Under the pieces are notes generated by a model. It was given only the letters and a program-made list of their open reading frames with translations, searched no databases and was not told where the DNA came from. The translations under genes and the position numbers were made by a program. 64,000 bases of DNA from Hyphomicrobium denitrificans 1NES1 (GTDB lineage: Bacteria > Pseudomonadota > Alphaproteobacteria > Rhizobiales > Hyphomicrobiaceae). Location: contig NC_021172.1 in the NCBI RefSeq assembly GCF_000230975.2, forward strand, positions 2,356,001-2,420,000. The letters run 5' to 3'. Position 1 is the first letter of the stretch. Every line of letters starts with the position of its first letter. This document shows positions 12,797 to 51,711 of the stretch, in pieces.

Positions 12797-14317
12797 TCAG
12801 AAGAAGCCGAGCGCCTTCGGGCTGTAGCTGACGAGCAGGTTCTTCGTCTGCTGATAGTGATCGAGCATCATCTTGTGCGTTTCGCGGCCGATACCCGACA
12901 TCTTGTAGCCACCGAACGCAGCATGCGCAGGATAGGCGTGATAGCAGTTGGTCCAGACGCGGCCGGCCTGGATGCCTCGGCCTATGCGATAGGCGCGCGT
13001 GCCGTTGCGGGTCCAGACGCCTGATCCGAGACCATAGAGCGTGTCGTTGGCGATCGCGAGCGCTTCCGCATCGTCCTCGAAGGTCGTGACCGCAAGGACG
13101 GGTCCAAAAATTTCTTCCTGGAAGACGCGCATCTTGTTGTGGCCTTCAAGAACCGTCGGTTCGACGTAATAGCCCGACGATAGCTCGCCGCCGAGGTTGG
13201 CGCGCTTGCCGCCCGTCAACACGCGCGCACCCTCGCCCTTGCCGATCTCGATGTAACTCAAAATCTTCTCAAGCTGATCGTTCGAGGCCTGAGCGCCGAT
13301 CATCGTGGTGGCATCCATCGGATGGCCCTGTTTGATCTTCACGACACGCTGCAAAGCCCGTTCCATGAATTTCTCATAAATCGAACGCTGGATCAGCGCG
13401 CGGCTCGGGCAGGTGCAAACTTCACCCTGGTTCAGGGCGAACATCGTGAAGCCTTCGAGGCACTTGTCGAAGTATTCGTCGTCCGCGTCCATCACGTCCG
13501 CGAAGAAGATGTTCGGCGACTTGCCGCCGAGCTCCAGCGTGCACGGGATTATGTTTTCCGATGCATACTGCATGATCAAGCGGCCGGTCGTCGTCTCGCC
13601 GGTGAAGGCGATCTTCGCGATGCGCTTGTTCTGAGCGAGGGGCTTACCCGCTTCGACGCCAAAGCCATTGACGACATTGAGGACGCCTTCGGGAAGAAGA
13701 TCGCCGATGATGTCCATCAGAACCATGATCGACATCGGCGTCTGCTCGGCAGGTTTCAGGATCACGCAGTTGCCAGCGGCAAGCGCAGGCGCGAGCTTCC
13801 AAACCGCCATCAACAGCGGGAAGTTCCATGGAATGATCTGGCCGACGACACCGAGCGGTTCATGGAAATGATACGCGATCGTATCGTGATCGATCTCGGA
13901 AATCGAACCTTCCTGTGCTCGCAGGCAGCCAGCGAAATAACGGAAATGATCGACCGCGAGCGGCAAGTCGGCGTGCGTTGTCTCGCGGATCGGCTTGCCG
14001 TTGTCGATCGTCTCGACGAGCGCCAGAACGTCCAGGTTCTCTTCCATCCTCGTCGCGATCTTCGCCAGGACGCGAGCCCGCGCTGCCGGAGAAGTGTTGC
14101 CCCAGGACTCACGGACTTTGTGAGCGGCATCAAGAGCTAGTTCGATGTCCTCAGCTGTCGAGCGCGCAATTTCGCAAACGGGCTGACCGGTAATCGGAGT
14201 GACGTTCGTAAAATACTGTCCACGAACAGGGGCGACCCACTTGCCTCCGATGAAGTTGTCGTAGCGAGCCTTGATGACTTGCCGGCCTTTAAGTTTATCC
14301 ATCGCAACATGCTGCAT
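12797..14317 (-). CDS. NAD-dependent aldehyde (acetaldehyde) dehydrogenase
   Basis: A 506-residue aldehyde dehydrogenase of the ExaC/AldB type, which oxidises acetaldehyde and similar aldehydes to acids with NAD. Catalytic residues are visible as Glu262 ([11 protein letters not shown]) and Cys301 ([10 protein letters not shown]). The cofactor-binding segment is FTGETTTGR. The start ATG at 14317 has GGAGGAGAT just upstream. The DUF779 genes downstream are typical companions of this enzyme. In a methylotroph or alcohol oxidiser it would act after a PQQ- or NAD-dependent alcohol dehydrogenase. It is followed by a strong terminator. Confidence 0.92.
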
Positions 14318-14535
14318 CGCAGATCTCCTCCGATTGATTGTTTGCTTTGGGGCAGCTTCTTGGGCGAAGTGATAACCCAGGCGCGCCTTGTCAAGCCATA
14401 GCGGCGGTCTTGTTCATTAGTAGGGCCAGCCATACGCCAGCAGTCGCCACAGCGCCGCGGTCCGAAAAGATCAGCACCCGCTCACTCCACATTAGGACGC
14501 TTTACGCCAGCGCGTAAGCAGTTCGCTAAGCGACG

Positions 14536-15885
14536 CTATTGTGACGGCTGCTGGAGAGAAAGAACATGGCCTGCAAGATAGAGTGAACCGCAAATCAAGA
14601 CCCGCTTCGGCCCCTTGGGCAGTGCAGCAATCGTTTGCAGCGCATCAATCACGTTTTCGCGATCCGTTGCCTGCATTCCCGCTGCCCGCGCAATCTCAGC
14701 GAGATTTTCCTGGGTATGAGGTGCCTCATGCGCGCCCGGGATCGGCACGGTGTAGATGGCACGGACAAGGCCCCGGAAGGGCGCCAGGAAGCCAAGCGCA
14801 TCCTTCTGCCCCATCATGCCGACCACAAGGTAGACGGGCTTCGGGGATTTCTCATCAAGGGCTGCAAGCGTGTCGGCAATCACGTCGCCAGCCGCGGGAT
14901 TGTGGCCGCCATCGAGCCAAAGCTCGGCCTCGTCCCCGAGAATTTTTGGCAACGGACCGGAGGATAGCCGCTGCATCCGGGCCGACCACTCGACCGTCCT
15001 GAGCCCGATTTCGATGGCTCTCTCATCAAGCCTCAACGAGGGAGTCCGTTCGCCGAGAACAAGGGCCGCGGCAACCGCGGTTCCGGCATTGCCGATTTGA
15101 TGTCTGCCGACGAGCGCCGGCAGCGGTAGATCGAGCAGATGGCCGTCACGTTGAACGACCAGGCGGCCTGTCTGTTCATAGGCATCGAAATCGCGGCCCC
15201 AGATAGTCAAATCCGCGCCGACCACCCGCGCGCGCGCTTCGATGACGGACAGGACCTCATTCGATTGCTGCGAAATGACACCAGCAACGCCGCGTTTCAG
15301 AATGCCTGCCTTTTCTGCCGCGATCTTACTGAGGGTGGGCCCGAGCTTCTCGGCGTGATCCATCGAGATCGGCGTGATGACGGTCAGTGCCGGCTCGGCA
15401 ATGACGTTTGTTGCATCGAGGCGACCGCCGAGACCGACTTCAAGCAGCAGAATGTCGGCGGGGCGTTCGGCGAATGCAAGAAATGCCGCCGCCGTCGTAA
15501 TCTCGAACTGGGTGATATCTTCGCCGTCATTCACGGCCTGCACCCGCATCAAAACATCGACGAGGGAGTCTTCGTCGATCGCTCGTGCCATACCGTCAGG
15601 GCCAGCGAGCACGATGCGCTCGTGGAAGCGCACGAGATGCGGCGACGTATAGACATGAACGCGCTTCCCCGCCGCCTCCATGAACGCGCGGAGGTATGCG
15701 GTGATGGACCCTTTGCCATTCGTGCCGGCAATATGGACGACGGGAGGCAGCTTGCGCTCCGGATGTCCGAGCTTGGCGAGCAAGCGTTCGACGCGGCCGA
15801 GAGACAAGTCGATGAGCTTCGGATGGAGAAGCATCAGATCGCCAAGCAGCGCGTCGCTCGACGGACGTGTCTTCGACGGGATCAT
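14536..15885 (-). CDS. folC: Bifunctional dihydrofolate/folylpolyglutamate synthase
   Basis: A 449-residue Mur-ligase-fold enzyme that adds L-glutamate to dihydropteroate and then to folates. The ATP-binding loop is HIAGTNGKGS, followed by YTSPHLVRFHERI, and the SMDHAEKLGPT and LDGGHNPAA motifs are present. It lies 37 bp after accD on the same strand, in the conserved trpFBA-accD-folC order. Length is normal. The start ATG at 15885 is the only in-frame start that keeps the usual N terminus. Confidence 0.95.
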   Translation of the reverse strand: MIPSKTRPSSDALLGDLMLLHPKLIDLSLGRVERLLAKLGHPERKLPPVVHIAGTNGKGSITAYLRAFMEAAGKRVHVYTSPHLVRFHERIVLAGPDGMARAIDEDSLVDVLMRVQAVNDGEDITQFEITTAAAFLAFAERPADILLLEVGLGGRLDATNVIAEPALTVITPISMDHAEKLGPTLSKIAAEKAGILKRGVAGVISQQSNEVLSVIEARARVVGADLTIWGRDFDAYEQTGRLVVQRDGHLLDLPLPALVGRHQIGNAGTAVAAALVLGERTPSLRLDERAIEIGLRTVEWSARMQRLSSGPLPKILGDEAELWLDGGHNPAAGDVIADTLAALDEKSPKPVYLVVGMMGQKDALGFLAPFRGLVRAIYTVPIPGAHEAPHTQENLAEIARAAGMQATDRENVIDALQTIAALPKGPKRVLICGSLYLAGHVLSLQQPSQ

Positions 15886-38932: not shown

Positions 38933-39433
38933 CTAGATGTCGATCTTCTCCGCGATCTCAATCGCGTCATCGACCTCGCCGAGGTAGCGCACAGTGCTCT
39001 CGATCTTCGAATGTCCGAGCAAGAGTTGGACCGCGCGAAGGTTTCCCGTTCGTCTGTAGATTAAAACGGCCTTCGTACGCCGTAGCGAATGCGTGCCGAA
39101 CTTCGCAGGGTCGAGGCCGATACAGGCGACCCAATCCTGAACGAGCCGAGCATGCTGACGAGTCGTCAGCCCGCGAGTGGCTCGGTCCATCGCGTAGCCG
39201 CTGGGTGCCACATCATCGACGCGCGCGGCAACGACGTCGCAGCCGCGAAGCTCACTATCGATCGCCAGGTTGAAGAGGGCTAGATCGCGGGTCTTGCCCT
39301 GCATCTGAAGCTTCGTTCGGATCGACCAGACGTGGCTCGGTCTTAGCGGCGGCTTGGCACCGATTATCTTACCTTTATTCCACGGGGTACGTGACGTCCG
39401 CTTTTCAACAGTGAATGCTTGTTCCTTTTCCAT
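38933..39433 (-). pseudogene. Internally deleted tyrosine recombinase
   Basis: The 166-residue frame begins MEKEQAFTVEKRTSRTPWNK with a good AAGGAGA site and continues through RGCDVVAARVDDVAPSGYA. It then jumps to TTRQHARLVQDW and the C-terminal catalytic part THSLRRTKAVLIYRR and LLLGHSKIESTVRYL. Compared with the related copy at 51.3-51.7 kb, about 45-50 residues containing the beta-hairpin with the catalytic Lys (QKKTGR...) are missing, and one residue before EVDDA is also gone. The frame stays open but the enzyme should be inactive. Confidence 0.8.
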
Positions 39434-43141: not shown

Positions 43142-43292
43142 CGACGGCTCGCGATTCTCAGATGCCGGCCGCGTGAGTTTTGTTACGACCGGCACTCTCT
43201 GCCAGAGATCGTCTATTTCAGCTGGAGGATATAGCGATGGCTTCAATATCCGCTGGGCCAAGGCGCGGTGATATCAAGCGCGGATGGCAATC

Positions 43293-43565
43293 ATGACGGA
43301 ACGAACAACTCGATCATCGGTGAGTTTCGCTTACCCTTTTCACCTCAGCGGAATTGAGGGAATCTATCCGTCGGGCACGTACGCAATTGAAGTGTCCGAA
43401 GAGACTATAGAAGGCGTGTCGTTCGTCGCATACCGGCGTATACAGACCACCATCGATTTGCCTTCGAACACCGCGTACATGTCGCGGCAAGTCGTTGAAA
43501 TTGAACCCGCCGATCTGGAAGAAGCGTTGGCGCGAGATTTGGAGACAGGCAATGGCAAATCCTAG
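43293..43565 (+). CDS. Small hypothetical protein, copy 1 of a paralogous pair
   Basis: A 90-residue cytosolic protein, MTERTTRSSVSFAYPFHLSG..., with IEGVSFVAYRRIQTTIDL and a C-terminal IEPADLEEALARDLE. It is clearly homologous to the protein at 44936-45235, so both are probably real. It is predicted beta-rich with a final helix. The function is unknown. Start 43293 is chosen by alignment to its paralogue. The next gene overlaps its end by 14 bases. Confidence 0.68.
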   Translation: MTERTTRSSVSFAYPFHLSGIEGIYPSGTYAIEVSEETIEGVSFVAYRRIQTTIDLPSNTAYMSRQVVEIEPADLEEALARDLETGNGKS

Positions 43566-44935: not shown

Positions 44936-45235
44936 GTGAACGAACGAACGACGCGCAAGTCGGTTACATTTCTGCATCCGTTCTCGCTCGCAGCCATCGA
45001 TGAAATACTGGAGCCGGGCACCTACATCGTCGAAACGTTCGAAGAAGTTATCGAAGGACTGTCGTTTGTCGCCTACCGGCGCGTATCGACAACGATAGTC
45101 ACGGCTGCCGAGGGATACGGCCCGGGTGCTCGACAAGTCATAACTATAGACCCGAACGATCTCGAAGCTGCCCAGGAACATGACGCGCAGATCGAACTTT
45201 CCACGGGACCACTGGCCCACTTAGTCGCGCGATAA
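44936..45235 (+). CDS. Small hypothetical protein, copy 2 of a paralogous pair
   Basis: A 99-residue paralogue of the protein at 43293, sharing ERTTRKSVTFLHPFSL, IEGLSFVAYRR and the RQVITIDPNDLEAAQEHD end. Start GTG 44936 has an excellent AGGAGG six bases upstream. Cytosolic, function unknown. Confidence 0.7.
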   Translation: MNERTTRKSVTFLHPFSLAAIDEILEPGTYIVETFEEVIEGLSFVAYRRVSTTIVTAAEGYGPGARQVITIDPNDLEAAQEHDAQIELSTGPLAHLVAR

Positions 45236-45844
45236 AGACCGATAAACCGTCAGGCGGCGATGCGATCGCAGGCGATTGAACTACTGTGATGAATGCGCTT
45301 GGCGCCGAGGCGCTAAACCTGGTGGATGCTAAAAAGACCCCACGCAACCCACGCTCGATCATCTTTCAGTTTTTCTGCTTATGGCCCGTAGCGCCATGAG
45401 GCTGACGGCGGCTTTCAGACCATCGCGACAGAATGCGAACGGCTGAAGGTCGATCGACGGTCGATGCCAAGAGCGGGCTGTGACGAGGTTTCGTCATCGT
45501 GCCTAGCCGCTTTCGGCGACGTCCGCTTTCCGAGCAAATCCGGGCGAGTTCCTTATCCAGCTGAAAGTCGATTTTGACCCAAAATCGGAAATCGCGAGAG
45601 CGGCGAAGGTATTCGTGATGAGATACTCTGCTTGGTGACATGAACGGCGCTGCGGTTAGAGCTTTTTGAAACGGTCTACCCTTGTAATTGTCGGAACAGG
45701 GATTATGTAAGGTACATCGGTTTTGGCGTCTTACGCCGTTTGCCCAGTCATCATGGGCGCTCATAGACAAAATCCAAACATCGACGATCATGATCAACCG
45801 CGCGCAAGCGTTGCTGATTTCCATTTCTCAAACGAAAGAAAACT
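45236..45844. other. Gene-poor stretch containing repeat copy A and the cspA leader
   Basis: No convincing coding frame; the minus-strand frame 45366-45824 has no ribosome site and an odd composition. Bases 45382-45470 are a dispersed repeat whose second copy is at 46850-46938. The last ~150 bases are the likely 5' leader of cspA. Confidence 0.55.
45382..45470 (+). repeat. Dispersed 89-bp direct repeat, copy A
   Basis: It shares the core GGCTGACGGCGGCTTTCAGA and GAATGCGAACGGCTGA plus TCGATCGACGGTCGAT with 46850-46938, with roughly ten differences. The copies are direct repeats 1.47 kb apart, flanking cspA and a GNAT relic. Confidence 0.75.
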
Positions 45845-46699: not shown

Positions 46700-47147
46700 T
46701 GGCAGAGGCAGTGCTCTATGCGCCGTCGTTTCCGTACATTGTTTTTCGGACACGTGTATTACGCCCGACCCAACGCTTGAGAAGCGGATAAGACTTGCGT
46801 TTTGAATGTCGACCCAGCCGAATTGGGGTTCTGAATCGATGTCTCCTCCTGGCCCTAAGCGCCAACAGGCTGACGGCGGCTTTCAGACCATCGTGATAGA
46901 ATGCGAACGGCTGATGATCGATCGACGGTCGATCCCAGAAGCGGCCCTAAGCAACTGCAGCATGAGCCGGTGACCGATGGCTGTGCTGCCGAGAAAGCTG
47001 CCGAGGACGACCCAGGCTGTAATGCGCCGCACATGGTCGAATTGTCCCAATTGCTGACATTGCACTTTCATTATCGGTGATGCGTGGAATCCTCGCGACG
47101 ATGTCCGCTAGGTGAGTGATTGCGTAATCACCAGTTCGAACGTCAAC
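46700..47147. other. Gene-poor stretch containing repeat copy B
   Basis: No convincing gene. Bases 46850-46938 are the second copy of the dispersed repeat. A 62-residue minus-strand frame at 46883-47071 overlaps the repeat and is not supported. The 3' end of the convergently placed STAND gene lies at 47148. Confidence 0.5.
46850..46938 (+). repeat. Dispersed 89-bp direct repeat, copy B
   Basis: Second copy of the repeat at 45382-45470, sharing the GGCTGACGGCGGCTTTCAGA, GAATGCGAACGGCTGA and TCGATCGACGGTCGAT blocks in the same orientation. It sits about 210 bp from the 3' end of the STAND NTPase gene. Confidence 0.75.
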
Positions 47148-50100
47148 CTACAAGCGCGCGAGGAAATCCCGGAACTCCGGCGACAATTCCTGTCTCGTTG
47201 CGGCCTCAGCAGCGAGCAGAATTTTTGCGGCAAGGCCGAGGCCACCTTCGGTGCTTTCGCACGCCTGCTCGATGGCGAGGCACGTCCGCATGGGCATGCG
47301 GAGCTCGAACCGCCGCGCCGTCGTCATTTCGCGCCAGGTTTCAACCACCCACCGACCGACGGAAGCGGATACCGCCCCTTTCAGTTCGTTCTGTCTCGTC
47401 GAATCGACGATGCGACACTGCGCTTCGAGAAGCTGACTAGGCGACAGCTTCTCCCGCCGGGTCGCCAGCAGAGCCAACCTCGAAGTAATCAAGACCTGCG
47501 ATCCATCGTTGATCATGCTCCGGCCCGACAGCGCGTCAACCAGAGGGCCAAAGGCAGGCACATCCGAAAGCGTGCTCGACAGTTGCTGGCCAAGTTCTGC
47601 CAAAAGCTGTCCCTGCTTGTTGCAGACTGCCTGGACTGCAAAGGCAATCACGGCATTCTGAATGCTGGAGACCACTATGGCGTCGGAATAATCCGCGGCC
47701 ACCAATTCACGCAGTCTTCCGCGCGCAAGCAGTCGATTACCATTGCCCGGTTTGCCTGCAGCGTCCCTCAAGGCCAGCATCGACGCCGCGTAGGGCTTCA
47801 GTTCCTGGACGAAGCGCGACAGATCCAGACGACGCACACTCTGCTCGATGCGCTCCTTCGCCATCAAACTTTCGCAATTGAGAATCCGTCGCTCCGACGG
47901 CCAGCCGTCGATCTCCTTCGTGATCGAGCCCTTCTCAGTGTGTCTCAGCTCCAGCAGGGCCAGCTTGTACCAGTCGACCTCGATCGGATGCGGCTTGCGC
48001 CCTTGCAGAGCTTCGATCGGCTCCAGGCGGCTACAAATACCGAGCGAAACCTCGAACTTCTTCCGGCCGGCCTCATCCACTGCCGATAGCCACTGATCGA
48101 TATTGCCGACGACCCCGCCGACGAGAAGACGGGCACAGTGCTCCAGATCGCTTCGGTCAAGGTGATAGGGCTCGATCCGCGCGAGTGCCTCTTTCAGCGT
48201 CGAGACCGCGTTCTCCACATGGCCATGGTTCGCCTGAGCCCAGGCCAAATCCGCCAACAGTCCGGTCGCCATGATCGTCATTTCGTCGCCGCCTCGCGAC
48301 GCCGCGTCAATTGCCCGCCGATAGTAGTCGATCGACGAGCTCCAGTTACCCAGCCGCGCTGCGCTGATGGCGGCTTCGCGCATCGCAAACGCCTGCTCCA
48401 CGAGGTCATCGGGCGGTAATTGCTCGGCGATGGCCGCGTAGAGCTTGCTCGCCTCCTCGTTTCGGCCAGCGCGGTGCAGAACCTTGGCTCTCTGACGGGT
48501 CAGCTCGATATGCGGCCCGAAGCACCTCTCGCCTTCATCGAGAACAGTCATGGCGGCCCGCTCGTCGAGTCCGTACTCATCCAGGATGACCGAGTGGGCT
48601 ACGAGGCAATCGATCGCGAGGGACCGCTTTCCCCACCTCCCGGCGCGAGTCGCCATGTCGGCGTAGAGCAACGCGGCGACCTTCGGGTCGAACCCCTCGC
48701 GCTTCTGGTCGGCAAACCAGGCATTGCCGGTGAACAGCCGGAAATTCGCGAGCTTGCCCTCAAATCCAGCCAGCAGGTCATTGCGTTCGGCGGCCGGCAG
48801 GTCGTCCAGTTCCTTGAACACCGAATGCAACGACGCCACTGTCGGATTCTTGATCGCGTTCATCACGAAGAGGGCCTGATGCATCGCCAGACCCTCCGCG
48901 TCGTCCAATTGTTCGGCTCGTGCCTGCGCCTCTGCCAGTACCCGGCCCTTACCGCTTCTCAGCAATTCTTTCACGCGCAGAGTCAGCTGTAGCCAGTTTG
49001 GAACCCGTTCCGGCAGGCGTTGCTCGCTCAAGCCCGCCCACAGTGCGATCATTTCGAATCCAGACCCGAGTTCTGAAATCTCGAGTGCGGCGGCTTCCTT
49101 GATCCCTTGGGCAAAGCATTCATTGACTTGCTTCCACTCTTCGAACTCGACGAGAACGTGGAACTGTGCGAACCGCAACAGCACGCTCAGGTACGGATTA
49201 GTGTCGAAGAGGGGCCGATCAATCCGCAGGTACTTGAGGGCCATCAATTCATGTGCGACGTAGCGCTTTTTCGATTCCTCGACCGTTATCGGAAGGGCCG
49301 CCAGCATCATCAGCCCCGGCTCGTGAGCGCTGGCGAAGGCATGCAGAAATGCCGTCGAGAGCAGATTGCCCGTCATCGGCCGCCGTGAAATCAGGTTGTT
49401 GACAATCGCGTGCTGTACCGATCTGAACTCCAACGCCGGGACGACATCCCTTGCCGCTCCCGACAGCAACGGTGACAGTCGATAGTAGCCCCGGCCCAGG
49501 TCCTCGATCCACGGGCCGATCAGCCAGTCGAGTGCCTCTCCGGGCTGTGTGAGGCTCGGAGCCAGCTTGCCAAGCTCGAGTGCCAGCGGCCGATCGAAAT
49601 ACCCGCCGATCACGCTCAGCCGATACAGCAGACCGCGCGACCGCTCGTCGACCTCGTTCTGGAGCCGCCGCCGTGCAGCTGTACGCTCGTCCTCAGCGCC
49701 CCTAGCCGGCAGTCTTGGATCGATTCCCGCCAAACGATCGGTCGTCGGCCAACCTTGTCGCGCGAGGCGTTTCAGTCGTGCGTGCACGAGCTGGGGGTTT
49801 CCACTGCCGCAGACAGTGTGAGTGACCGGTCCCCAGATTTCCGCGTCGCCGCCGAGTGCGGCAACCAGTTGACCCACGTCCGCCTCGTTGAGGTTGGAGG
49901 CCCGCACCACCGCATCGCCGCTGGCAAAAGACAAGAGTCGGTCCGACGGCAAGCGGCTGCAGGTCACCACGACAAGGCAATCACTCACTCGCGCGGCGTC
50001 AAACACCAGGCTCAGCGCATCCTCGATTTCCGCGTCCAGCTGGACCGGCAGGTCGTCAAGAATCACGCCCGCCGTCCCGCTTCGGATCTGGCCCAGGCAC

Positions 50101-51161
50101 TGCCCCATCCTGAGCCGCGCTTCGTCCGCTTCAGCGCCGCGTAGATCGATCAGCGGCCACTTCCCGCCAAGCCGACGCGCCAGAAGACGGGCCAAGGTGG
50201 ATTTGCCGAGCCCGGTTCCGCTTTGCAGGACCAGCCAGCCATGCTCTGTCAGCTTTGCTCTAAGATCATCGACGAGCGCTGTTCGCTCAGCGACAGGCAA
50301 GGGCAACGGTCGATCGCCAGCGTCGAATATGCGGTCTGGCGATTGCACCCTTGCGTCACCGACTTGGCCGGCCAGCAGTTGCCGCAGAACCGGGTTGGGC
50401 ACGGGCGTACACGTCCCGGATTCGATGATCCCATCGAGCTCGACGGAATCCAGGACGCGATCGGCGCCTTTCGATGCGATCTCAAGTATCCGCGCCAGCA
50501 GCGGATCGAGAATGGCGGTCAATTCGGCAACGTTCGTCCCCGCGACAAGCGATCGACCGCGTTGGACCAGTTTGGCCTCCACCTGCCGCCGCAAATCATG
50601 GAGTGATGGCTGATCCACATCCCAGTGTATCCGCCGGAGCAGATGCTCTCGCACGTCGGCGTCGCTCGCCCCTTCCAGGAATTGCCTGAGTTCGGTCGAT
50701 AACGGGAGGGTCAGCAAGAGTGCCCTGAGCGGGCCAACATTGCCACCTTGTCGGGCGGCAGTGCGCCAGTAGGCCAGGCCCGGCACATTGCCCGGCAACT
50801 CAGACTGCTGCTCGCGTCCGATAATCGACGTGGTCAGGTAGCGAAGCGACACATGGCGATTGGGGTTCTTCTGCTTGAGAGCCCAGAAATTTCTTAGAGC
50901 CTCAACGACTGGCCTCGAGCGTAGTGTAATGCTATCGGCAGTCCTCCGAACCTGAACCGCTTCAAGGCATTCCCTTACCGCGGTTGCGTAATCCTCGGCT
51001 ACTTCCACATGCAGGCTCGCACCCGGCTCCAGATCAATCCAGGCGAGTGCCGTGCACATCAGCTGATAGGCATACCCGCCGATAGCATGAATGGCTGCTC
51101 GCGCCTCGTTGTCCGAGACGGGCGCGCCCATTTTCGGTAGCGGCGACCTAGATTCGTTCAT
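47148..51161 (-). CDS. Large STAND NTPase with N-terminal nuclease-like region and C-terminal TPRs
   Basis: A 1337-residue protein. Residues ~17-200 resemble the DUF4297/Cap4-type nuclease region: AIHAIGGYAYQLMCTALAWI, LHVEVAEDYA (Glu53, Glu56, Asp57) and EAVQVRRT, then RYLTTSIIG. The expected Q-x-K is Q70-V-R72, so catalysis is uncertain. A STAND-type ATPase follows: Walker A SGTGLGKST (Lys320), Walker B GVILDDLP (Asp369, Asp370), then LVVVTCSRLPSDRL. From about residue 600 it is helical with TPR-like repeats (SKLYAAIAEQLPPDD, SIDYYRRAIDAASRG, NAVSTLKEALARIEP). This nuclease-NTPase-repeat layout is that of Avs-like antiphage sensors. It is a lone gene between a repeat and a recombinase relic. 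The start has only a weak ribosome site; ATG at residue 11 is the alternative. Confidence 0.8.
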   Translation of the reverse strand: MNESRSPLPKMGAPVSDNEARAAIHAIGGYAYQLMCTALAWIDLEPGASLHVEVAEDYATAVRECLEAVQVRRTADSITLRSRPVVEALRNFWALKQKNPNRHVSLRYLTTSIIGREQQSELPGNVPGLAYWRTAARQGGNVGPLRALLLTLPLSTELRQFLEGASDADVREHLLRRIHWDVDQPSLHDLRRQVEAKLVQRGRSLVAGTNVAELTAILDPLLARILEIASKGADRVLDSVELDGIIESGTCTPVPNPVLRQLLAGQVGDARVQSPDRIFDAGDRPLPLPVAERTALVDDLRAKLTEHGWLVLQSGTGLGKSTLARLLARRLGGKWPLIDLRGAEADEARLRMGQCLGQIRSGTAGVILDDLPVQLDAEIEDALSLVFDAARVSDCLVVVTCSRLPSDRLLSFASGDAVVRASNLNEADVGQLVAALGGDAEIWGPVTHTVCGSGNPQLVHARLKRLARQGWPTTDRLAGIDPRLPARGAEDERTAARRRLQNEVDERSRGLLYRLSVIGGYFDRPLALELGKLAPSLTQPGEALDWLIGPWIEDLGRGYYRLSPLLSGAARDVVPALEFRSVQHAIVNNLISRRPMTGNLLSTAFLHAFASAHEPGLMMLAALPITVEESKKRYVAHELMALKYLRIDRPLFDTNPYLSVLLRFAQFHVLVEFEEWKQVNECFAQGIKEAAALEISELGSGFEMIALWAGLSEQRLPERVPNWLQLTLRVKELLRSGKGRVLAEAQARAEQLDDAEGLAMHQALFVMNAIKNPTVASLHSVFKELDDLPAAERNDLLAGFEGKLANFRLFTGNAWFADQKREGFDPKVAALLYADMATRAGRWGKRSLAIDCLVAHSVILDEYGLDERAAMTVLDEGERCFGPHIELTRQRAKVLHRAGRNEEASKLYAAIAEQLPPDDLVEQAFAMREAAISAARLGNWSSSIDYYRRAIDAASRGGDEMTIMATGLLADLAWAQANHGHVENAVSTLKEALARIEPYHLDRSDLEHCARLLVGGVVGNIDQWLSAVDEAGRKKFEVSLGICSRLEPIEALQGRKPHPIEVDWYKLALLELRHTEKGSITKEIDGWPSERRILNCESLMAKERIEQSVRRLDLSRFVQELKPYAASMLALRDAAGKPGNGNRLLARGRLRELVAADYSDAIVVSSIQNAVIAFAVQAVCNKQGQLLAELGQQLSSTLSDVPAFGPLVDALSGRSMINDGSQVLITSRLALLATRREKLSPSQLLEAQCRIVDSTRQNELKGAVSASVGRWVVETWREMTTARRFELRMPMRTCLAIEQACESTEGGLGLAAKILLAAEAATRQELSPEFRDFLARL

Positions 51162-51328
51162 GGGAGATCATACCAGCTTCGCCGGGTGTCCGCTGTTGGG
51201 GGTGAGCGACCGGGTCACAACGATGATCTTGTTGCGGATGAGAACCGCAGAGCGACGGCAGCTTTCTCGGCTTCTCGAAGTTGCCGCAAGGTCCCAATAG
51301 CTGCCGTCGCACGTACTGAGGTATCGCG

Positions 51329-51711
51329 TTATATGTCGATCTTTTCCGCAATCTCGATCGCATCATCAACCTCGATGCCGAGATAGCGAACCGTGCTTTC
51401 GATCTTTGAGTGCCCGAGCAGGAGTTGGACTGCCCGCAGATTGCCAGTTCTTCGGTAAATCAGCACGGCCTCGGTTCGCCGCAGTGAATGCGTGCCGAAC
51501 TTAGCCGGATCGAGGCCAATGCTGGCCACCCATTCCTGCACGAGCCGGGCGTACTGGCGAGTAGTCAGCCCCTTCTGTCGCCACGACCAGCGGAGAGGAA
51601 CTGGCCCGGTTTGCGTCCAGTCAGGCGCAGGTACTCGTTGATCGCCTGACGCGTCTGGTCGGTCAGCTCGAACCGAACCAGCCTTCCGGTCTTCTTCTGC
51701 AGCAGATGAAG
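51329..51711 (-). pseudogene. Truncated, frameshifted tyrosine recombinase
   Basis: The minus strand reads QKKTGRLVRFELTDQTRQAI, then NEYLRLTGRKPGQFLSAGRG. It shifts frame near 51570 into LTTRQYARLVQEWVASIGLD, then THSLRRTEAVLIYRR and LLGHSKIESTVRYLGIEVDD to the stop. The first part of the gene is missing. It is a diverged paralogue of the relic at 38933-39433, in the same orientation, and lies just upstream of the STAND gene. Confidence 0.82.

Follow-up and report, generated by a model that had tools for sequence, protein, structure and literature searches.

What does the large gene at positions 47148..51161 of a 64,000-nucleotide stretch of the Hyphomicrobium denitrificans 1NES1 genome (NC_021172.1; the whole stretch is referred to below as the window) encode, and does it defend its host against phage? 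An original prediction, made from the DNA alone, described a nuclease-like/STAND NTPase/TPR protein with the layout of Avs-type single-gene immune sensors and named it a candidate antiphage system. That layout is supported by our analysis, and we assign a probability of roughly 0.78 to the gene encoding a single-protein, Avs-like intracellular phage sensor that would act as an abortive-infection receptor. Computed support consists of the predicted folds, intact NTPase motifs, a nuclease center matching that of a proven double-stranded DNA nuclease, defense-rich loci of relatives, and mobile surroundings; phage sensing, oligomerization, DNA cutting by the window copy, and abortive infection, and with them defense itself, are what we infer from this support. 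The gene and its parts are as follows, with counts referring to the rows of a combined alignment described below.

47148..51161, minus strand: nuclease-STAND-TPR gene, 1337 amino acids, ATG start (reading frame and full-length relatives)
50397..51116, minus strand: predicted Cap4/DUF4297-type PD-(D/E)xK nuclease domain, residues 16-255 (profile and structure matches)
50991..51005, minus strand: acid motif E53-V-A-E56-D57 (conservation; D57 aligned with D40 of HerA-DUF4297)
50946..50954, minus strand: Q70-V-R72 (CAG GTT CGG), aligned with K55 of HerA-DUF4297 at R72
49902..50312, minus strand: STAND nucleotide-binding domain, residues 284-420, boundaries approximate (Pfam, model, and structure matches)
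50199..50219, minus strand: Walker A GTGLGKS, residues 315-321 (K320 in 108/108 rows)
50052..50066, minus strand: Walker B VILDD, residues 366-370 (D370 in 105/108 rows, N in 3)
49362..49901, minus strand: helical and winged-helix part of the STAND module, residues 421-600, boundaries approximate (model and structure matches)
47151..49361, minus strand: all-helical TPR-type arm, presumed sensor, residues 601-1337 (model and TPR matches)

The single open frame of 1337 residues is real rather than a chance one, because the closest relative found in a protein search (P0002, 1327 amino acids) is 86% identical over 99% of the query, and the query aligns over its whole length with 50 full-length relatives of comparable size. 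Translation could also start at M11, where P0002 begins. No second match lies in its own genome, which consists of one contig of 3.81 Mb and is rated 100% complete. The gene call listed for the locus, P0003, comprises 1015 amino acids and begins at residue 323, just after Walker A and without the nuclease; the record with that call therefore hides the nuclease end. The protein search scored only the 7991 candidates sharing most words with the query and yielded 60 matches, one of them the truncated call P0003; alignment A1 comprises the query and 50 of these (P0003, P0004, P0007, P0030, P0046, P0053, P0055, P0057, P0058, and P0060 were omitted). A scan of genome contigs with a pattern of the acid motif yielded 102 relatives, of which 80 loci were kept and 59 had a usable open reading frame (ORF) of 1250-1450 amino acids. 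L084, whose picked ORF misaligned at the motif, was dropped from sets A2, A3, and A6, and L083 from A3 and A6. Together these gave 109 rows, reduced to 108 after removal of one redundant row, the window copy included. One omitted relative, P0060 (1559 amino acids), carries an extra N-terminal region of ~200 amino acids (precomputed Pfam PF05908) before the nuclease-STAND-arm chain, its match starting at residue 227; this region could be a second effector or the product of a gene fusion.

The N-terminal region, proposed in the original prediction to be DUF4297/Cap4-like, has a Cap4/DUF4297-type PD-(D/E)xK nuclease fold as judged from profile and model comparisons. Its profile matches three solved DUF4297 proteins (8xav, 1.2e-7; 8ziq, 1.5e-6; 9c1m, 1.6e-5), and its modeled structure matches DUF4297 (9c1m), LmuA, and Cap4, not something unrelated. 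In a sequence profile alignment, D57, Q70, and R72 line up with D40, Q53, and K55 of HerA-DUF4297, for which a D40A/Q53A/K55A mutant is described in PMC11291478. Pfam Cap4_nuclease is found in 12 of the 59 aligned family members, the window copy not being among them. Across the family the nuclease is the most conserved part of the protein: E53 and D57 are each present in 108/108 rows, Q70 in 106/108, and lysine at position 72 in 93/108, with R72 in the window copy, which keeps E53, E56, D57, Q70, and E117. Conservation of the acid motif in the genome-contig loci is partly built in, because that motif was the scan pattern; K72 lay outside the pattern, and independent evidence on the motif comes from protein set A1, in which E53 and D57 occupy 51/51 rows and position 72 reads K/R/T in 42/7/2. 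E117 is invariant in 108/108 rows, though it lies outside the D/Q-x-K center.

The middle region is, on the model, an NLR/CED-4-like STAND NTPase: it contains a P-loop NTPase with Walker A, Walker B, and a helical/winged-helix domain, the Walker motifs are as intact as had been claimed, and CED-4 and NLR proteins match the structure model over residues 277-600. Pfam nSTAND3 matches 18 of 59 family members weakly. Matches in the PDB list fall mostly on AAA ATPases over the P-loop part, and these were not taken as evidence of kinship. The long C terminus, also described in the original prediction as of TPR type, is all-helical in a model of residues 585-1337 (predicted local distance difference test score 91.0) with TPR matches, and it is the least conserved part of the protein across the family. 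The best Foldseek match of residues 1-600 is Avs3 (8dgc), and MalT (8bob) is also listed. Regulation is another role of STAND proteins that carry repeat arms, and the MalT match would fit a protein that is a MalT-like switch of host physiology and has no part in defense; such a host regulator would, however, be hard to reconcile with an N-terminal nuclease fold bearing a conserved center, and no helix-turn-helix output domain was found in a Pfam scan of the protein. Taken with the distribution and neighborhoods of relatives described below, we consider regulation of this kind highly improbable.

The protein combines an effector, a STAND module, and a repeat-type arm in one chain, as Avs proteins do; described systems compare with it as follows. 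Avs3 (8dgc) shares the order of nuclease, STAND, and long arm in one chain, whereas its chain has 2028 residues compared to 1337 here and the domains superpose only loosely as a unit (root-mean-square deviation 13.7). Avs5 is likewise a single-chain STAND immune protein, in which nSTAND3 is predicted, but its effector is a Sir2 NADase (both from PMC12931631), in contrast to the nuclease here. The nuclease subunit of HerA-DUF4297 (8xav, 8ziq, 9c1m) matches at the sequence level, including the D/Q-x-K center; there, however, the nuclease forms a subunit of its own, carried by a HerA hexamer (PMC12198126), and has a catalytic lysine, whereas here it is fused to STAND and TPR regions and the window copy has arginine. 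No cluster corresponding to an adjacent HerA partner recurs among the relatives' loci, one of which (L006) has a HerA gene nearby. CBASS Cap4 (6vm6) differs in having a SAVED/CARF receptor domain, according to the entry title, where STAND and TPR are found here, and CED-4 and plant NLR proteins differ from the window protein at both the effector and the sensor ends.

PADLOC includes models of the described AVAST types. A PADLOC search (2023 release, run with eight whole proteins) had been proposed as a check; for the window protein it returned a weak match to DUF4297 (E 0.034) and, at E ≤ 1, nothing else, so that no AVAST-type profile was matched, and the seven relatives matched only LmuA, DUF4297, and mad8 at E ≤ 0.01, one of the seven being without a match. 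No family covering the whole protein was found in the Pfam, NCBIfam (run with one protein), and PADLOC scans made, which name parts at most; searches with the single window sequence likewise returned no match from phmmer against PDB, NCBIfam, or a first genome-contig scan. In the available parts of open-licence papers on HerA-DUF4297, Lamassu, Avs1, and Avs5 (PMC11291478, PMC12198126, PMC12799240, PMC12931631) no description was recognized as this family. In kind the protein is Avs-like, though it is not classed under Avs types 1-5, and we read it as a new family within a known class of receptor.

LmuA raises another possibility. LmuA works with the SMC-type protein LmuB, and Lamassu and Hachiman, which use nucleases of this kind, are regarded as DNA-sensing systems. 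The nuclease fold of Lamassu LmuA (9nxx, 9hr5) is matched here, and LmuA is the commonest PADLOC profile match among family members (46/59). The protein might accordingly be a defense system that senses foreign DNA or DNA ends directly, in an anti-plasmid or anti-uptake role and with no phage protein as ligand. This we regard as improbable, given that no helicase or SMC partner recurs (no LmuB-type cluster recurs in 85 loci, and a single neighbor, at L039, shows a weak LmuB match) and that the arm is of the TPR type, which commonly binds proteins.

Under the phage-sensor reading, the TPR arm would bind a phage protein, upon which the STAND NTPase would exchange nucleotide and oligomerize; oligomerization would pair the N-terminal Cap4/DUF4297-type nuclease domains, the paired domains would cut double-stranded DNA, and the infected cell would die or stop before the phage spreads. 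The proposal follows SeAvs3, in which binding of a viral protein triggers tetramerization and pairs the nuclease domains (PMC11291478), and the statement in PMC12931631 that Avs1-4 nucleases cut the genome of the host as well as that of the phage. Avs-like receptors correspond in bacteria to NLRs, and with each further family the number of phage molecules that they can read is put to the test. The present family is compact (~1350 amino acids, one gene), is seen in records from several phyla, and would be easy to test in a laboratory strain.

Whether the nuclease of the window copy is active turns on residue 72, where the presumed Q-x-K was noted to read Q-V-R; residues 70-72 do read so. In a survey of this position in homologues, 93 of 108 rows have K, 13 have R, the window copy among them, and 2 have T; arginine is a recurrent minority state. 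Only two columns of the whole protein are at least 70% lysine, 72 and K320, and K320 is never R. When mapped on a rapidly built tree of the STAND region, from which the nuclease was excluded and in which support falls below 80% for 28 of 105 inner branches, the K, R, and other states require at least 13 changes for the 15 non-K rows, from which it follows that R arose many times and founded no large groups. The codon for R72 is CGG, two bases from AAG and two or more from either lysine codon; R72 is therefore no single-base sequencing error.

It is conceivable that the receptor is as proposed and that its nuclease has decayed in this strain, R72 killing catalysis in a recent relic that still reads through; we treat this as a possibility, though a doubtful one. 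It would agree with the K72 of the nearest relative, P0002, with the position of the non-K states near the tips of the tree, and with the existence of broken relatives (the split copies G116, G118, and G125, the stop-bearing G028 and G106, and the C-terminal remnant G044). Identity to P0002 is 84.2% in the nuclease, 92.0% in the nucleotide-binding domain, 87.8% in the helical and winged-helix part, 87.4% in the first part of the arm, and 81.1% at the arm end, so that only the arm end is lower than the nuclease, and the low nuclease value could reflect relaxation. Counts of nuclease changes in the window lineage and that of P0002, however, give no consistent excess (10 vs 6 with P0005 as outgroup; 5 vs 8 with P0006). 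Decay is further opposed by the family-wide conservation of the nuclease, by the retention of the five residues named above, and by the distance of CGG from AAG. In addition, 13 of the 15 non-K rows are R and keep the charge, whereas single-base decay of AAA or AAG should also have given E, Q, N, and M. A tolerated, charge-preserving swap is favored, because nearly all non-K states are R, and R72 in the window copy is probably functional or reduced, leaving some activity. The recurrent change from K to R would be nature's own test of how active a suicide effector has to be. As a bolder and rather unlikely reading, this may be a further Avs-like family, separate from types 1-5, in which the arm recognizes some phage protein not among the known ones and the repeated swap of lysine for arginine damps or tunes a suicidal nuclease.

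The family is rare and patchy, with relatives from several phyla found both on plasmids and on genome contigs. Only 2 of the 397 genomes of a phylum sample match at E ≤ 1e-50, the own genome included, and 4 of the 103 genomes of the host's family match at E ≤ 1e-20: the own genome, one with an intact copy, one with a stop, and one with a C-terminal remnant that was detected by profile and not by tblastn with the 1337-residue protein. The intact and the stop-bearing copies are only ~30% identical to the window protein, while closer proteins (86%, 46%, and 43%) come from other sources, which suggests, without proving, that these copies were acquired separately. Seventeen plasmid records match at E ≤ 0.001, six of them covering at least 80% of the query and the rest partial, down to 17%; by mobility typing, 5 of the 17 plasmids are conjugative, 3 mobilizable, and 9 non-mobilizable. 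Titles of the genome-contig relatives name Pseudomonadota genera, Poribacteria, Nitrospira, Gemmatimonadaceae, and Verrucomicrobiaceae, some of which may be misplaced contigs, because many are metagenome bins. Homologues are thus not found mostly in core, non-defense contexts, and the patchy distribution, with two other copies in the host's family so divergent, argues against a regulator of host physiology.

The neighborhoods of relatives point the same way and are, by PADLOC matches, defense-rich compared to control stretches. This comparison used 20 of the 80 loci, picked for their long contigs; nine others of 29 genomes, three split copies among them, were left out. The 125 ORFs within 3.5 kb of these relatives match 191 PADLOC families at E ≤ 1e-10, and 112 control ORFs ~55-70 kb away on the same contigs match 9, a contrast that overstates the enrichment, because families and not ORFs are counted and a single GajA accounts for 66 matches at E ≤ 1e-5. 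In a test covering the relatives' loci only, 9 of the 20 loci have a PADLOC match (E ≤ 1e-5) for their longest neighboring ORF: HerA (L006), PD-Lambda-4_A (L072), the candidate-only family PDC-S37 (L011), a Ppl-like ATPase that also matches LmuB weakly, at 2.2e-8, behind better ATPase matches (L039), DUF4238-Pers (L014), a methyltransferase of the DrmMI/type IIG kind (L038), SoFic (L027), IetS (L043), and GajA (L020). A defense-gene or mobile-DNA position, as expected of Avs genes, is thus found for relatives, and these neighbors again argue against a host regulator. The plasmids differ: on the Agrobacterium plasmid of H2 the gene is followed by an AAA ATPase, a helicase, and, further on, an integrase; on that of H3 it is preceded by an AAA ATPase and a DUF4276 gene and followed by IS66 genes; and on that of H1 no transposase or integrase is among the listed neighbors. 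The gene had been called lone, and this holds in the sense that no operon partner recurs across the family in 85 loci. Besides the gene or its pieces, the clusters present in at least 5 of the 85 loci, all named by eye, are ABC-type ATPases, which occur in 8 loci, and two found in Poribacteria: a short ORF of PIN type at 7 loci and a methyltransferase at 6.

Several observations weigh against the phage-sensor reading. On its own the window copy matches known models weakly, as with DUF4297 in PADLOC above and with Pfam nSTAND3 (0.0027, below cut-off). The only HerA-DUF4297 mutants found at the lysine position are K-to-A changes combined with others, and the window copy could therefore be a weak or dead nuclease. 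Among relatives, the longest neighboring ORF has no PADLOC match at E ≤ 1e-5 in 11 of the 20 loci, and some of the nine matches are generic (ATPase, methyltransferase, candidate-only family). The defense-gene neighbors belong to the relatives' loci; at the window copy the context evidence consists of repeats and a recombinase relic. Finally, no relative was matched in the phage records searched, nor in 24 pattern stretches of viral contigs, a search by one pattern and hence of limited sensitivity.

The features surrounding the gene in the window are as follows.

45374..45476, plus strand: dispersed 103-nt repeat, copy 1 (genome search)
46842..46944, plus strand: dispersed 103-nt repeat, copy 2, 86% (genome search)
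46988..47065, plus strand: left flank repeat, ending in a 22-bp core at 47044-47065 (sequence comparison)
51256..51312, plus strand: right flank, with an inverted copy of 46988-47003 (51256-51271) and a direct core copy (51291-51312)
51333..51700, minus strand: recombinase relic, C-terminal part with a disrupted frame (sequence matches to fuller copies)

Both a dispersed repeat on one side and a recombinase relic on the other had been noted, and both are confirmed. At E ≤ 0.001 the 103-nt repeat is matched at three places of the genome, of which two lie left of the gene and one at 795 kb. The relic, part of a small recombinase that appears from its motifs to be of the tyrosine type, has fuller copies of 210-230 amino acids at ~806.7-807.4 kb of the own genome and in G053 and G045. 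The 22-bp core lies on both sides of the gene (at 47044 and 51291, 18/22 identical), and a similar core lies beside another recombinase remnant at 791216. At 791 kb of the own genome and in G059, sequence like the left flank is separated by 77-78 bp from the end of a recombinase of the same family, and the nuclease-STAND-TPR gene is absent from the interval; in G044 and G053 it occurs with no recombinase match in the stretch taken. Because the core pattern was derived from the copies at 47044, 51291, and 791216, its three exact matches are by construction; a fourth exact copy was not found in the genome, and with up to 2 mismatches the pattern occurs at 17 places compared to 12 for a backwards control. 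Base-shuffled flanks reach the direct repeat score in 4/300 and the inverted score in 1/300 cases, and no allelic empty site was found in a close strain. While these data suggest that the gene was inserted at a recombinase-associated repeat, they do not show it, and we do not claim it; the flanking repeats and the relic do support a cargo position as read from sequence.

Several partial copies and at least one fuller copy of the recombinase family were observed in the own genome, in the window at ~38934-39172 as well as at 51333-51700, and at 100 kb, 791 kb, and 806-807 kb. Counting the own genome, the family is matched in at least 11 of 22 genomes of the genus, and several of these have it near the 103-nt repeat. 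Among relatives of the gene, the frame of the split copies G116, G118, and G125 (loci L032, L035, and L061) breaks near profile positions 100, 310, and 360-370, and the match of G106 (L009) holds a stop; decay or sequencing error may account for these. In six Poribacteria loci (L036, L044, L045, L046, L055, and L057; ~14240-14690) the gene is followed by a conserved ORF of ~140-150 amino acids, of PIN type by eye, and in several of them restriction-modification-like genes come after the gene. Within the window, two similar short ORFs of 93 and 99 amino acids (43284-43565 and 44936-45235) lie downstream of a groEL-like gene and are apparently a duplicated pair.

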